A stretch of DNA of 39,257 nt from Elusimicrobiaceae bacterium (lineage in GTDB: Bacteria; Elusimicrobiota; Elusimicrobia; Elusimicrobiales; Elusimicrobiaceae). The stretch covers positions 92,947 through 132,203 of the forward strand of contig JAEEMS010000026.1 of assembly GCA_016283355.1 (NCBI GenBank), given 5' to 3'. The notes under the pieces were generated by a model that was not told where the DNA came from, made no database searches, and worked only from the letters and a program-made list of their open reading frames with translations. The position numbers were made by a program, and so were the translations under genes. This document shows, one piece after another, positions 21,067 through 27,065 of this stretch; the stretch's first letter is position 1; every line of letters begins with the position of its first letter.

Positions 21067-22194
21067 ATGAGAAAGTTTTTGTTGTTTCTGTTGCTGTTGG
21101 GCGTAGGGGCAGGGGTTTATTATTTTTATTTTTATAAAACTCCCGAAGTTCGTGCATTTGAACAAAATTTAGCACAAGCCAAGCAAGGCAATGCTTCGGC
21201 TATGTTTCAAGCGGGATTAGGGTACGAAAAGGGCGTAGGTACGCCACAAAACAATGCACAAGCCATAGAACTTTTCCGTCAAGCAGCCAGCGCCGGCAAT
21301 ACGGAAGCCATGTATCATTTGGCTAAAATATACGAAGAAGGCAAAATGGTTCCTCAAGATTTAGAAGAAGCTGTGGTATATTTACAAATTGCAGCTGCGC
21401 AAGGGGATGCTAACGCACAGATTGCATTGAGTCGTTATTTCCAAGAAGGAAAAGGCGGATTAACTGCCAGTGAAGGGGAAGCTTTATTGTGGCTTTCCCG
21501 TGCGGCTAAACAAAATAATGCCGGGGCCGCCCAAGCGTTAAAAGAAGCACAAGAAAAAAATCCGGAATTGTATGAAGCGGTAATGAATTTTGAAGAAAAT
21601 TTAGCAGGCGTGGCCGAAGATGCCCAAAAAGCGTTTGTTGTCGCCGATGCATATCGGAAAGGAAATCCGGTTGCCCGCAATGATGAAGAGGCCTTTAAAC
21701 TCTTTAAAACTGCCTGGGAAAAGGACCCGACACTCTCGCAAGCGGCGGTAGAATTGGCGGAAATGTACCGCTTGGGTGAAGGTACCGAAAAAAATGATGA
21801 AAACGTCCTTTCCCTTTACGCAAAAGCAGCGGAATTAAAAAATCCGCAAGCGCAGTACTTTTTAGGTAAACGCAGTTACGAAGAAAATCCCCCGAATTAT
21901 CAAGATGCTTTTGCCTGGCTTTCTAATTCTGCCGCGCAAGGGTATGCTCCGGCGCAATATATGACGGGGTATATGTTGTTGCAAGGGCAAGGCACGGCCC
22001 GCTCTCTTCCGATGGCGGTAGATTTTTTTACCAAATCGGCTGAACAAGAATTTGCACCCGCGCAATACGTATTGGGGCAAATGTATTGGAAGGGATTGGG
22101 CGTAAAGAAAAATACGGAACAAGGTCGTTCCTGGATTGAAAAAGCAGCCGCCAACGGGAATGAATCCGCACAAACTTTCTTGGCAAATCTTTAA
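21067..22194 (+). CDS. Sel1-repeat (TPR-like) protein with N-terminal membrane anchor
   Basis: A 375-residue protein with an N-terminal hydrophobic helix (MRKFLLFLLLLGVGAGVYYFYFY), probably uncleaved, holding a periplasmic repeat domain. About seven Sel1-like repeats follow from residue 34 on, with typical elements such as AMFQAGLGYEKGVGTPQNNA, AMYHLAKIYEEGKMVPQD and AQYVLGQMYWKGLGVKKNTE; the middle region (about 165-215) is diverged. Sel1 repeats form helical scaffolds for protein-protein contacts, often in signalling or envelope functions. The gene is flanked by its own promoter and a terminator; the partner is unknown. Confidence 0.88.
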   Translation: MRKFLLFLLLLGVGAGVYYFYFYKTPEVRAFEQNLAQAKQGNASAMFQAGLGYEKGVGTPQNNAQAIELFRQAASAGNTEAMYHLAKIYEEGKMVPQDLEEAVVYLQIAAAQGDANAQIALSRYFQEGKGGLTASEGEALLWLSRAAKQNNAGAAQALKEAQEKNPELYEAVMNFEENLAGVAEDAQKAFVVADAYRKGNPVARNDEEAFKLFKTAWEKDPTLSQAAVELAEMYRLGEGTEKNDENVLSLYAKAAELKNPQAQYFLGKRSYEENPPNYQDAFAWLSNSAAQGYAPAQYMTGYMLLQGQGTARSLPMAVDFFTKSAEQEFAPAQYVLGQMYWKGLGVKKNTEQGRSWIEKAAANGNESAQTFLANL

Positions 22195-22304: not shown

Positions 22305-23447
22305 TTATCTTGTAAAGGACGTTACTTTACCGGTAGAAACATTTGTATCGTAATAAATTGTTCTTGCCTTTTTTGTTATGGTAGCAGGTTCTTCCACAAT
22401 AATGCGCAAGACGTCATTTGGTTCCAGTTCAAAAAATTCTTCTAACTTCTGCGGATTGAGAAAGGGGTTGAAATGGACCGTTTGTTTCACAAAGCCGTTT
22501 CGCATTAATAATACGGAGGAAAGGTGTTCGTTGGGATACAAAAGCGCAACCGGTCTTCCTAATACTTTCATCTCAATGGCGGCTAATTTATCATCTCCAG
22601 TGATAAATGCTCGGGATACGGCCACGGCATTTTGGATAGGAACAGCGAAATGTACATTCGTAAGATTTTTTTTGGCCTCTTCAGGCAAGAATTTAAACCA
22701 TTCCGCTAACTGAGCATTGTAACTGAAATCTCTTTCCATGGCCAGTAATTTTCCGGTGACAGAATCTGTAATGGCACTTCCACACGCTCCACCTAACATT
22801 AGAGGGTTACGCATTTGTATTACGTAGCGCAAGGGTGAAGCAGTAAGTACGGTTTCTTCAGGCAAAAGAAAAGGAACCTCGTCTGCAAAGCCCGAAATAT
22901 TTACAGCGGTTCCGATTTCCGCCAGCTCCTCGGCAGGATCGAGGGGAGTTATGAACGGTTTTAGCTTATCCGGAATATAAGACACGGTTATATCTAAATT
23001 GTGTTCATTGGTGATATACATTGTTTGGATGGGTTCTACAAATTCTTCTCCGCTTGAGGTTCTCACCTTTACATACGGGTCTTTTTTGATTTTTACTGCT
23101 ACATGTGAAGGAAAAACGAGAATCCCTTTTCCGTCGACCATCATGGGTAGAGCGGACCCTGTATTGTTTGAAGAAGCATGCAGCTGAACCTGAATAGAAG
23201 GGGTGTTTTCATGTAAGGTATAGAAATATTTTTGCGGACGCGGTTGAGATATAACTTGTGGAATTTGTTTCAATCGTCCTGTAAATTTTAACGTCGCTAT
23301 TTGGGAAAGTTTCCGCAGTTGCGCTGCGGAAAGGGCATTTTTTGCCACTTCCGTAATACTGGGAGGTAACGGTTTGGCATATCCCAATGAAAAACAACAT
23401 AGTAAAAAGAATAAAAATAATTTTTTCATAATTTTAATTTTGTTCAT
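22305..23447 (-). CDS. Secreted trypsin-fold (PA clan) peptidase-like protein with Cys nucleophile, copy A
   Basis: A 380-residue exported protein: a Sec signal peptide (n-region MNKIKIMKK, hydrophobic core, SLGYA end) and a basic helical segment (about 30-75) precede a region that reads like a DegP-type trypsin fold. The His segment is LVFPSHVAVKI (His115), the Asp segment HNLDITVSYIP (Asp152), then EIGTAVNISGF, and a nucleophile loop GGACGSAITDSVTGKLLAM with Cys222 where serine peptidases have Ser, followed by HFAVPIQNA as in DegP FAIP. Triad order and spacing suit the PA clan. The last 100 residues form an unrecognised domain, not an obvious PDZ. The start overlaps the upstream paralogue (ATGA) and has GGAGAT. 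Function is inferred from motifs only. Confidence 0.7.
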   Translation of the reverse strand: MNKIKIMKKLFLFFLLCCFSLGYAKPLPPSITEVAKNALSAAQLRKLSQIATLKFTGRLKQIPQVISQPRPQKYFYTLHENTPSIQVQLHASSNNTGSALPMMVDGKGILVFPSHVAVKIKKDPYVKVRTSSGEEFVEPIQTMYITNEHNLDITVSYIPDKLKPFITPLDPAEELAEIGTAVNISGFADEVPFLLPEETVLTASPLRYVIQMRNPLMLGGACGSAITDSVTGKLLAMERDFSYNAQLAEWFKFLPEEAKKNLTNVHFAVPIQNAVAVSRAFITGDDKLAAIEMKVLGRPVALLYPNEHLSSVLLMRNGFVKQTVHFNPFLNPQKLEEFFELEPNDVLRIIVEEPATITKKARTIYYDTNVSTGKVTSFTR

Positions 23448-24562
23448 CTTTTATCTCCATACACAGCAACTTTACCGGTAGAAACGTTCACATCGTAAAA
23501 AATCTTCTGACCGGTATGTGCCCGTTCTACGACGAAGCTTAACACGTCATTTGGTTCAAGGTTAAAAAATTCTTCTAACTTCTCCGGATTGAGAAAGGGG
23601 TTATAAAAAATGCTTTTTTTGCGCTTTACCCACACAGACAAAATATATTCATCGGGATACAAAAGCGCAACCGGTCTCCCCAGCACTTTTATTTCAATGG
23701 CGGCCAAAGAATCATCCCCACTCTCAAACGCGCGGGCAATAGCCACGGCATTTTGGATTGGGATAGCAAGATGTGTATCTGTAAAGTTCTCTTGTGCTTC
23801 TTGCGGCAGAAGCTGGAACCATCCTGCCATTGATGCACTGCCCATATAATTAAATCCCTGCTCTATGGCTACCGCCTCCCCGGTAACGGGGTCTGTGATA
23901 GTACCGCCGCATATCCCTTCTAACATTTTGGGATTGCGCATTTGTATCACATAGCGTACCGGCGAAGCAAAAAGAACGGTTTCTTCGGGCAACAGAGTAG
24001 AACTTTCGTGTGCAAAGCCCGAAATATTTACAGGGGTTCCGGCTTCTAGCAGGGACTCGGCAGGTTCCAAAGGGGTTATAAACGGTTCTATCTCTTCCGG
24101 AGCACGGAACACCGTTAAATCCAAACCACGTTCGTGAGCGCTGTACATTTCTTTAATAGGGGCTACAATCACTTCCCCGCTGGGAGTTGTTACTTTTACA
24201 TGGGGATCTTTTTGAATCTTTTCCGCCCAATGCGTAGCACAAAACAGTTCTTTTTTCCCATCCACCATTAGCGGAGTAGCCGAAGCAGCATGAACGGAAT
24301 GAGCGTGTAATTGCACTTGGACGGTAGGTATCTCGCTCGGGGAGACATTTGGATTAAATTGTTGACGCGGGTTCGTTCTCAATTGCGGAATTTGTTTCAA
24401 CCGTTGTGTGAAATTGGCCGTCGCACTTCGGGAAAGATTTTTCAGTTGCGTGGCGGACAGGGCTTTCCTTGCAATTTCTTCCACACTGGGCGGTAACGGT
24501 TTGGCATATCCCAAAGAAAAACAACACAATAGAAAAAATAAAAATAACTTTTTATCATGCAT
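23444..24562 (-). CDS. Secreted trypsin-fold (PA clan) peptidase-like protein with Cys nucleophile, copy B
   Basis: A 372-residue paralogue of the next gene; much of the sequence is shared (KPLPPS start, PVNISGFAHE, LPEETVLFASPVRYVIQMRNP, VLGRPVALLYP). It has a Sec signal peptide ending SLGYA. The putative triad is His111 (FCATHWAEKI), Asp148 (RGLDLTVF) and Cys218 (LEGICGGTITDPVTGEAVAI). All three positions, including Cys, are kept in both copies, which argues against random loss of a serine. The ATG at 24562 has no good ribosome site, and I find no better start. It is first in a two-gene unit; downstream translation is coupled by ATGA. Confidence 0.7.
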   Translation of the reverse strand: MHDKKLFLFFLLCCFSLGYAKPLPPSVEEIARKALSATQLKNLSRSATANFTQRLKQIPQLRTNPRQQFNPNVSPSEIPTVQVQLHAHSVHAASATPLMVDGKKELFCATHWAEKIQKDPHVKVTTPSGEVIVAPIKEMYSAHERGLDLTVFRAPEEIEPFITPLEPAESLLEAGTPVNISGFAHESSTLLPEETVLFASPVRYVIQMRNPKMLEGICGGTITDPVTGEAVAIEQGFNYMGSASMAGWFQLLPQEAQENFTDTHLAIPIQNAVAIARAFESGDDSLAAIEIKVLGRPVALLYPDEYILSVWVKRKKSIFYNPFLNPEKLEEFFNLEPNDVLSFVVERAHTGQKIFYDVNVSTGKVAVYGDKR

Positions 24563-24641: not shown

Positions 24642-25889
24642 CTATTGGAGCGAAGAATAGAGAGGAAACTGTGCCAAAAATTCTTTTACCTGTTTTGCTT
24701 GCGTTGCTAAAAAGGCATCATCTTCGGCGTGTGTGAGCGCATTATCAATAAATGCGGCCACTTGCGCCATGTCTTTTTCTTTCATCCCGCGCGTGGTAAT
24801 AGCCGGGGTACCGATACGCAATCCGCTGGTCACAAATGGTTTTTCTGGGTCGAAAGGGATGGTGTTTTTGTTGGCGGTAATACCGGCTTTATCCAGGGCG
24901 GTTTCCGCAGCTTTGCCTGTCATTTTTTTGTTGCGCAAATCTAAACACATCACATGGCAATCGGTTCCGCCGGCTACTAAGCGGTAGCCGCGTTTGATAA
25001 GTTCTTGCGCAAGTGTTTGCGCATTTAATTTGATTTGGTGTTGATAGGTTTTAAATTCGGGTTTTAGCGCTTCCCCAAAGCAAACGGCTTTCCCGGCGAT
25101 TACATGCATGAGCGGACCGCCTTGCGTCCCCGGGAAAACAGCGGAATTGATAGCTTTGGCCCATTTTTCTTTACACAAAATTAACCCGCCGCGCGGGCCA
25201 CGTAACGTTTTGTGTGTGGTAGTGGTTACTACGTCCGCGTATGGGACGGGAGATGGATACTCTCCGGCGGCCACAAGCCCCGCATAATGCGCAATATCGC
25301 ACGCTAAATACGCACCGCAACTATCGGCAATTTCACGCAACCGTTTCCAATCAAAGATGCGGGAATAGTTAGAAGCCCCCGCCATAATTAGTTTGGGTTT
25401 ATGTTGCAAGGCCAAGCGGGCCGCTTCTTCGTAATCAATTTCTTCCGTATCCGGACGAACATTCATAGCAATAATGTTGTAAAGCTTCCCGGAAGAATTC
25501 ATCGGGTGACCGTGTGTTAAATGTCCGCCGTGGGAAAGATTTAACCCTAAAATCGTATCTCCGGGATTTAAGAGTGCAAAATAAACCGCCATATTGGCTT
25601 GTGCGCCGGAATGCGGTTGCACGTTGGCATGCTCGGCCCCGAATAACTTTTTGGCGCGTTCAATGGCCAATGTTTCCACCTGATCTACAAATTCACATCC
25701 GCCGTAATAGCGTTTGCCGGGGTATCCTTCCGCGTATTTGTTGGTAAGTACGGACCCTTGCGCTTGCATAACAGCCAAAGAGGTAAAATTTTCGGAAGCA
25801 ATAAGCTCCATTTTTTCGCGTTGGCGGTTGAGCTCGTTTTTTACAGCGCTAAAAACTTCGTAATCGGTCTGTTGCAAATCGGAATACAT
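24642..25889 (-). CDS. glyA: Serine hydroxymethyltransferase
   Basis: A PLP enzyme that interconverts serine and glycine while charging tetrahydrofolate with a one-carbon unit; cytoplasmic. The 415-residue protein has all landmarks: SENFTS (32-37), [18 protein letters not shown] (52-69), the H-S-G-A-Q-A-N-M segment, and the PLP lysine Lys227 in [16 protein letters not shown]. The ATG follows AAGGAG. It is divergent from the deoxyhypusine-synthase-like gene. No clear terminator is seen, only the tandem repeats at 24600-24638. Confidence 0.98.
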
Positions 25890-25994: not shown

Positions 25995-27065
25995 ATGGCT
26001 AAATTGACCAAAAAAGACTTTCTCAAAGACACTGTCAAACACATTGATTTGAAAAAATACAATGTTGTTCCGATGGTGGAGGCCTTTGGGAGCATGGCCT
26101 ACGCGTCCCGCGAAGTGGCCAGAGCGAGCAAAATATATAACATGATGCTTTCCGATAAAAAATGCTCTGTCATTTTGTGTATCGCGGGGTCCTTGGTATC
26201 TGCCGGCATGAAAAAAGTAGTGGTAGATATGATCCAAAACCACATGGTGGATGCGATTGTTTCCAACGGGGCCAACATTGTGGACCAAGATTTCTTTGAA
26301 GCTCTTGGTTTCAAACACTATATCGGCAATCCTTACAACCAAGATGATAATTTGTTGCGCGATTTGCACATTGACCGTATTTACGACACCTACATCGATG
26401 AAGACGAACTCAAAGTGTGCGATGAAACCATCTATAAAATCTGCAATGCGTTGGAACCCCGTCCGTATTCTTCCCGTGAGTTTATTTGGGAAATGGGAAA
26501 ATACTTGGATAAAAAGAACAAAGGCAAAGATTCCATCGTTTACAACGCCTACAAATACGGCGTACCGATATTTGTACCGGCCTTCTCCGATTGTTCCGCC
26601 GGATTTGGTTTTGTAATGCACCAAGCCGAACGCCCCGGTGCCCACATTTCTATTGACAGTGCCAAAGATTTTTTGGAACTGACCAAAATCAAAATGAAAG
26701 CCAAAGAAACCGGTCTTATGATGTGGTCCGGTGGTGTGCCGAAAAACTTTGCACAGGATACTGTGGTAGCCGCCGAAGCATTGGGTGCGGAAATCCCGAT
26801 GCACAAATACGCGGTACAAATTACCGTAGCTGATGTGCGCGACGGTGCTTTGTCCGGCTCTACCCTCAAAGAAGCTTCCAGCTGGGGTAAAGTTTCCACC
26901 GCTTTGGAACAAATGGTGTATGGTGAATGTACCACGCTCATCCCGCTTATTATTGGGTATGGCTATCACAAAGGTGCGTGGAAAAAACGCCAAGCCACCA
27001 ATTACGTCAAATTCTTACAGGAAGAAGACGCAAAAGCTGCCAAAGCCGCCAAAAAAAGAAAATAA
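25995..27065 (+). CDS. Deoxyhypusine synthase family protein
   Basis: The 356-residue protein belongs to the deoxyhypusine synthase fold: SNGANIVDQDFFEALG (90-105), VYNAYKYGVPIFVPAFSDCSAGFGF (182-206) and the segment SSWGKV with Lys299, aligning with the catalytic lysine of the eukaryotic enzyme. Eukaryotic and archaeal members transfer aminobutyl from spermidine to a lysine of eIF5A/aIF5A; bacteria lack that substrate, and related bacterial enzymes can make homospermidine. Presence of the catalytic lysine suggests an active NAD-dependent aminobutyl-transferring enzyme, with the acceptor unknown. The C-terminus is a lysine/alanine tail (DAKAAKAAKKRK). It ends immediately before the next gene (TAAATG). 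Confidence 0.85.
   Translation: MAKLTKKDFLKDTVKHIDLKKYNVVPMVEAFGSMAYASREVARASKIYNMMLSDKKCSVILCIAGSLVSAGMKKVVVDMIQNHMVDAIVSNGANIVDQDFFEALGFKHYIGNPYNQDDNLLRDLHIDRIYDTYIDEDELKVCDETIYKICNALEPRPYSSREFIWEMGKYLDKKNKGKDSIVYNAYKYGVPIFVPAFSDCSAGFGFVMHQAERPGAHISIDSAKDFLELTKIKMKAKETGLMMWSGGVPKNFAQDTVVAAEALGAEIPMHKYAVQITVADVRDGALSGSTLKEASSWGKVSTALEQMVYGECTTLIPLIIGYGYHKGAWKKRQATNYVKFLQEEDAKAAKAAKKRK

Follow-up and report, generated by a model that had tools for sequence, protein, structure and literature searches.

Two adjacent genes in a 39,257-nucleotide stretch of DNA from an Elusimicrobiaceae bacterium (the window) raise the question of whether bacteria export trypsin-fold peptidases that use cysteine in place of serine as their nucleophile. 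This idea had been put forward from the letters of the window alone (hereafter, the sequence-only reading), and we followed it up with profile searches, structure prediction and a comparison of related loci. The two genes, called P1 and P2 here, belong to a family that is real, conserved and unannotated. Taking the alignments and a structural model together, we consider it probable that P1 and P2 are active PA-clan cysteine endopeptidases that the cell exports, and that they descend from HtrA/S1-like serine proteases and have diversified by tandem duplication.

The gene pair and its products

P1 and P2 are overlapping paralogues, 62% identical to each other, that occupy positions 22305-24562 of the window on the reverse strand, where the sequence-only reading had placed both open reading frames. 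The features below lie on this strand unless otherwise indicated. The upstream gene of the pair, P2 (23444..24562), encodes a predicted exported Cys-type trypsin-fold protein of 372 amino acids, as judged from its reading frame and triad columns. P1 (22305..23447; 380 amino acids), for which we have a reading frame and an AlphaFold2 model, starts within the last codons of P2, such that the end of P2 and the start of P1 share a 4-nucleotide overlap (ATGA). In our reading of the sequence, a GGAG motif is located directly 5' of the P1 ATG.

Both proteins have the same architecture: they begin with a putative signal peptide, continue through a short helical stretch into a trypsin-like domain, and end in a C-terminal domain of roughly 95 residues. 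The putative Sec-type signal peptide of P1 comprises residues 1-24 (23376..23447), with likely cleavage after GYA and without a lipobox; it was read from the sequence and not called by a dedicated predictor, and is supported by a family consensus, PAYAQK, and by a helix at residues 5-21 of the AlphaFold2 model. The export signals proposed earlier thus fit both proteins, and we expect that this peptide would direct export of the P1 and P2 chains. Residues 25-80 of P1 (23208..23375) form a variable helical region, with pLDDT of about 65-96, that is possibly a pro-segment or a linker. The predicted PA-clan double beta-barrel follows at residues 81-284 (22596..23207), as delimited by secondary structure in the model, in which the match to DegP, DegS and SplA spans approximately residues 71-290.

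The remaining residues, 285-380 (22308..22595), make up an all-beta domain with no recognized family or fold. When folded alone, this domain is modeled with pLDDT of 94.6 as seven strands with short helices. Foldseek found nothing at E<=0.001, and the best VIA match has a Z-score of only 4.7, in agreement with the earlier remark that this part of the protein, then estimated at 100 residues, is unrecognized. No PDZ or other known fold is among the matches listed, although the absence of such a match does not exclude a PDZ domain. The domain is present throughout the stand-alone family, and is not aligned in most copies that occur within giant proteins (see below).

Fold of the trypsin-like domain

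Searches starting from the individual proteins were uninformative: a Pfam scan of P1 and P2 revealed no peptidase family, and phmmer with P1 matched no solved structure. Among 52 family members, 46 match Pfam Trypsin_2 at E<=0.1 (best 1.2e-10), and eight weakly match Peptidase_C3 (best E 0.013). A profile built from the relatives retrieved HTRA1, the staphylococcal glutamyl endopeptidases (V8/Esp), SplE, the trypsin-like domain of IgA1 protease and viral 3C proteases, with E-values from 1e-6 to 1e-3. In the displayed alignments, the family's His, Asp and Cys fall on the catalytic columns, where several solved constructs have Ala at the nucleophile. Even a profile built without serine-type members retrieves a serine HtrA-like protein of the host among 223 open reading frames (E 2.5e-8), in an alignment that spans both barrels, has His and Asp in register, and puts the family's Cys opposite the Ser of SSSGSP.

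The AlphaFold2 model of P1, predicted with 52 relatives, has a mean pLDDT of 91.8 and a pTM of 0.88. All 991 PDB chains that were compared with it have Z-scores of at least 8, and the best matches are DegP, DegS, MucD, Deg1 and SplA (Z about 19 over 165-188 residues). With high confidence, the model thus assigns P1 to the PA-clan double beta-barrel fold, as the sequence-only reading had anticipated, and not to some other fold. The geometry of the triad is a separate matter, and is suggested by where the residues fall when the profile is aligned with the HtrA catalytic columns.

Conservation of the putative catalytic residues

The putative triad of P1 is His115 (23103..23105), Asp152 (22992..22994) and Cys222 (22782..22784), and there is no other Cys in P1 after maturation. 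In P2, the corresponding residues are His111 (24230..24232) and Asp148 (24119..24121), whose positions were counted from the translation, and Cys218 (23909..23911). The motifs around these residues occur as originally described (SHV/THW, LDITV/LDLTV, NISGF and GACGSAI/GICGGTI), the residue numbers given for P1 and for Cys218 of P2 are right, and in both copies His, Asp and Cys follow the trypsin order when aligned to the HtrA columns. By homology, Cys222 would be activated by His115 and Asp152 to attack the peptide bond, and the G-x-C-G loop would form the oxyanion hole.

An alignment of homologs had been proposed as a check on the triad. Among the 52 aligned members, the His column is intact in 51 and the Cys column in 49; 44 have Asp, and the remaining eight have Asn in its place. 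We also classified 112 PA domains, for which an automatic reading gave 88 HDC, 10 HNC, 11 HDS and one each of HNA, SDH and HDY; one HDC row (L095) is really serine-type, which leaves 87 HDC domains. The Cys-type assignment of L095/L126 was accordingly dropped, as the sequence there is G-F-S-G-G-P. The HDS triads are restricted to ordinary HtrA/trypsin-type domains, and the Gly following the Cys is invariant across HDC rows.

The HNC, HNA, SDH and HDY rows constitute one paralogue clade (support 98), and loss of Cys or His is confined to this clade, in which Asp has mostly become Asn. That Cys or His is sometimes lost where Asp has mostly changed is what would be expected if the three residues work together. 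This clade corresponds to L036:6778-8001 and to the same array position in L037-L044; its members have Glu at the S1 column and sporadically lack Cys or His. They are likely pseudoenzymes or specialized partners that have been retained beside active copies.

Cysteine is otherwise scarce in the family. The nucleophile column accounts for 49 of the 84 cysteines in the mature parts of the 52 members, and the next commonest column for 17. Several paralogue groups have a second conserved Cys at column 239 by P1 numbering, in the motif G-I-H-C-G-S (e.g., L041:9190-10437), which is 17 residues past the nucleophile and, in our reading, near Ser214 of chymotrypsin. Compositional bias was considered as the cause of the Ser replacement and ruled out, given the scarcity of cysteine and the serine-type enzymes kept in the same genome. 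Because the nucleophile Cys is kept across the family, and also in a cysteine-poor giant protein, the Cys of the window's genes is neither drift nor a sequencing slip. Comparison of the PA parts of P1 and P2 gives dN of 0.29 and dS of about 2.2, the latter being saturated, and their divergence shows purifying selection. The triad is no chance arrangement, and the residues named in the sequence-only reading are conserved among homologs.

It is important to consider that the window's own pair has departed from the family motif GVTAxH, with VFPSH and FCATH instead, and that residues 110 and 225 of P1 are unlike the family consensus. Because of these changes, the P1 and P2 copies could be weakened while their relatives are intact.

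The S1 pocket

Glu238 of P1 (22734..22736) occupies the S1 column and in the alignment stands opposite the G-I-H His of the Esp glutamyl endopeptidase. In glutamyl endopeptidases, His at this column is the determinant of specificity for Glu at the P1 position of the substrate; 3C proteases use its equivalent to recognize Gln. Among the 88 rows read as HDC, 49 have His in the column, 15 have Phe, 11 have Tyr and the rest have other residues; Glu occurs in the window's pair and in HNC rows. We therefore infer from these residues that members with His may have Glu/Gln-type specificity, and that the window's pair probably has a different one, perhaps basic. Because the S1 residue has diversified, the paralogues probably cleave different sequences.

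Distribution, copy number and giant proteins

Profile matches at E<=1e-5 occur in 83 of 341 Elusimicrobiota genomes. Strong matches come from the window's genus and a sister genus. Elsewhere in the phylum, the weaker matches that were inspected belong for the most part to ordinary HtrA-like proteins with serine; one exception, of the Cys type, comes from another Elusimicrobiota family (L097). Relatives are named as uncultured Elusimicrobiales and Elusimicrobium assemblies, several of which carry RUG (rumen) names. Full searches of four genomes showed that the largest sets comprise about 9 to 11 near-full-length copies, in addition to matches to the N-terminus only. The host genome encodes four Cys-type and four Ser-type trypsin-like proteins, and Ser-type PA proteins are exported as well. 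No relatives were found in collections of viral contigs, phages and plasmids. A scan of genome contigs with a single protein gave no match because the family is too divergent, and an over-diverse family alignment yielded no usable patterns.

The domain also occurs in very long proteins. In the sister genus, an open reading frame of 5,670 residues has five clear PA domains, and its six cysteines include five PA nucleophiles. L120, L121 and L127, which come from the sister genus and from a different family of the phylum, are giant proteins (3,400-5,700 amino acids) with only 0.1-0.2% cysteine, and each contains from one to about five PA domains. One polypeptide of 1,107 amino acids (L123:2-3325) combines a Cys-type domain (GGTCGSA) with a Ser-type domain (PGSSGSA). 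Another giant protein, L126 (1,775 amino acids), combines a PA domain of the serine type with a segment weakly similar to legumain/C13 (E 0.0087).

Matches at the locus L081 were dropped as family proteases, since they involve mainly the N-terminus and the proteins look ChaN/Tiki-like. This locus (G063:C19:1000-17000) is an array of about ten secreted paralogues of 430-490 amino acids with weak matches to ChaN/Tiki (Cofac_haem_bdg). They have a leader style, AxAQKNLxPAAKAAL, in common with the protease family, and appear unrelated in the remainder. The common leader is possibly a shared sorting or N-terminal signal.

Synteny and a proposed origin of the cysteine

The pair is flanked by two conserved neighbors: glyA (serine hydroxymethyltransferase; 24642..25889), upstream on the same strand, and a Sel1-repeat protein gene (21067..22194, forward strand) that is convergent with the pair. 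A bacterial deoxyhypusine synthase-like gene is located at 25995-27065 (Pfam DS, E 1.9e-92). We compared 18 loci, and wherever the flanks are covered, the protease array, mostly of two to four genes, is situated between glyA and the Sel1-repeat gene. Beyond these flanks, the relatives have a band-7 gene and, where the sequence extends that far, atpC. The window's pair is the reduced form of this array and belongs to a large family, a scale that the sequence-only reading missed.

In syntenic relatives, identity to the window's genes is 83-90% for glyA and 91-94% for the deoxyhypusine synthase-like protein, whereas proteases are only about 15-34% identical to P1. Such fast-evolving proteases between conserved flanks fit tandem duplication with diversification. 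The Sel1-repeat protein, though set among conserved neighbors, also evolves fast (46-50% identity), and is a possible functional partner of the array.

We constructed a quick tree of PA domains, including Elusimicrobiota serine HtrA-like domains. This tree needs two changes between Ser and Cys, but the likelihood rises slightly when the serine-type rows are all constrained to group together (p-AU 0.578), which makes the data compatible with a single switch. The tree leaves the root and the direction of change unfixed; we favor Ser-to-Cys because serine HtrA proteins are ubiquitous. Our proposal is that the family would have arisen within Elusimicrobiota from HtrA/S1-like serine proteases via one Ser-to-Cys switch, and that tandem duplication at the fixed glyA/Sel1-repeat locus would have expanded it while the S1-pocket residue diversified.

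Alternative explanations

The caveat raised above regarding weakened copies leads to the alternative that these proteins are pseudoproteases, i.e., exported trypsin-fold scaffolds that have lost the serine, retain Cys as a relic, and bind ligands without cleaving them. Several active-site neighbors are indeed altered in the window's pair, and some members look degenerate, with the array clade showing Asp-to-Asn changes and scattered Cys or His loss. However, with an overall identity of just 15-35%, nearly all other members still keep Cys, His, Asp and the next Gly; the PA Cys is almost the sole Cys retained in a cysteine-poor giant protein; and dN between P1 and P2 is well below dS. We therefore regard this explanation as unlikely. 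The Cys might instead act in redox switching or be a site of modification on a protein with a protease-like fold, as it is often the sole Cys of the mature protein. However, it falls exactly on the column of the catalytic Ser, in the company of His and Asp, which is unlikely to be a coincidence; we consider this the least credible of the alternatives.

A functional nucleophile could also serve a different reaction. Cysteine nucleophiles favor acyl transfer, and the PA domain is found in giant proteins that resemble surface proteins, so it is conceivable, if rather improbable, that an amine and not water resolves the thioester, in a transpeptidation or ligation of surface proteins. Hydrolases are the nearest relatives, however, and we identified no acceptor site or sortase-like substrate motif. 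The remaining alternative, to which we give very little credence, is that a picornavirus-type 3C-like protease was acquired horizontally, with no Ser-to-Cys change in the bacterium. G-x-C-G with a downstream G-x-H in many members, and weak profile matches to 3C structures, are what such a transfer would leave. Yet the profile matches to HTRA1 and bacterial glutamyl endopeptidases are stronger, the best VIA structural matches are DegP, DegS and Spl, and the family falls into one tree with Elusimicrobiota serine HtrA-like domains, albeit a tree without viral sequences.

As for what these enzymes would do, we find it most likely that they would digest or process proteins of the host or its diet in the gut; next in likelihood is that they would mature surface proteins of the bacterium itself, and last comes a part in interbacterial conflict. 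Through this family, a sizeable group of probable exported enzymes in gut Elusimicrobiota comes to light that is unannotated and missed by standard libraries. Moreover, a genome in which Ser and Cys types coexist, as they do even within a single protein (L123), offers a cellular system for studying the biochemistry of the much-discussed serine-to-cysteine switch.

Comparison with known systems

The HtrA/DegP/DegS proteases (MEROPS S1C) and bacterial Trypsin_2 proteins resemble P1 and P2 in the double beta-barrel, the order of His, Asp and nucleophile, the signal peptide (putative in P1 and P2), and the profile and fold matches. However, HtrA enzymes have a Ser nucleophile where P1 and P2 have Cys, which places the latter outside the serine-based definition of S1C, and the P1/P2 family differs further in its 95-residue all-beta domain, with no PDZ recognized, and in its tandem arrays. 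The staphylococcal glutamyl endopeptidases and Spl proteases (S1B) are similar to P1 in fold (SplA, Z 19.2) and are exported, as P1 is predicted to be. Their S1-pocket His is shared by 49 of the 88 HDC rows, while the window's pair has Glu; they also have a serine nucleophile, and Spl proteins do not have the additional C-terminal domain. Spl proteases likewise occur as tandem paralogues.

The viral PA-clan cysteine proteases (picornain C3, NIa C4 and others) share the Cys nucleophile, the PA fold and the G-x-C-G loop with P1 and P2, and the downstream G-x-H of 3C-type enzymes is present in many relatives. A structural survey from 2019 lists nine PA-clan cysteine families, all from positive-strand RNA viruses, and relates the viral proteases to HtrA-like cellular ones (PMC6524800). 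In contrast to an origin in such viruses, the genes of the P1/P2 family are chromosomal and syntenic in bacterial genomes. We found no bacterial Cys-type trypsin-fold enzyme in the open literature, where incomplete coverage means that this is not proof of absence. There is perhaps an even chance that this is the first recognized cellular family of PA-clan cysteine peptidases, in which Ser-to-Cys was fixed independently of RNA viruses, with many copies per genome, domains in giant proteins, and some polypeptides that combine both nucleophile types. The viral enzymes process polyproteins, while the P1/P2 family is cellular, predicted to be exported, and nearer to bacterial HtrA- and V8-type proteases in sequence and fold searches; it is likely a cellular counterpart of the viral PA-clan cysteine families.
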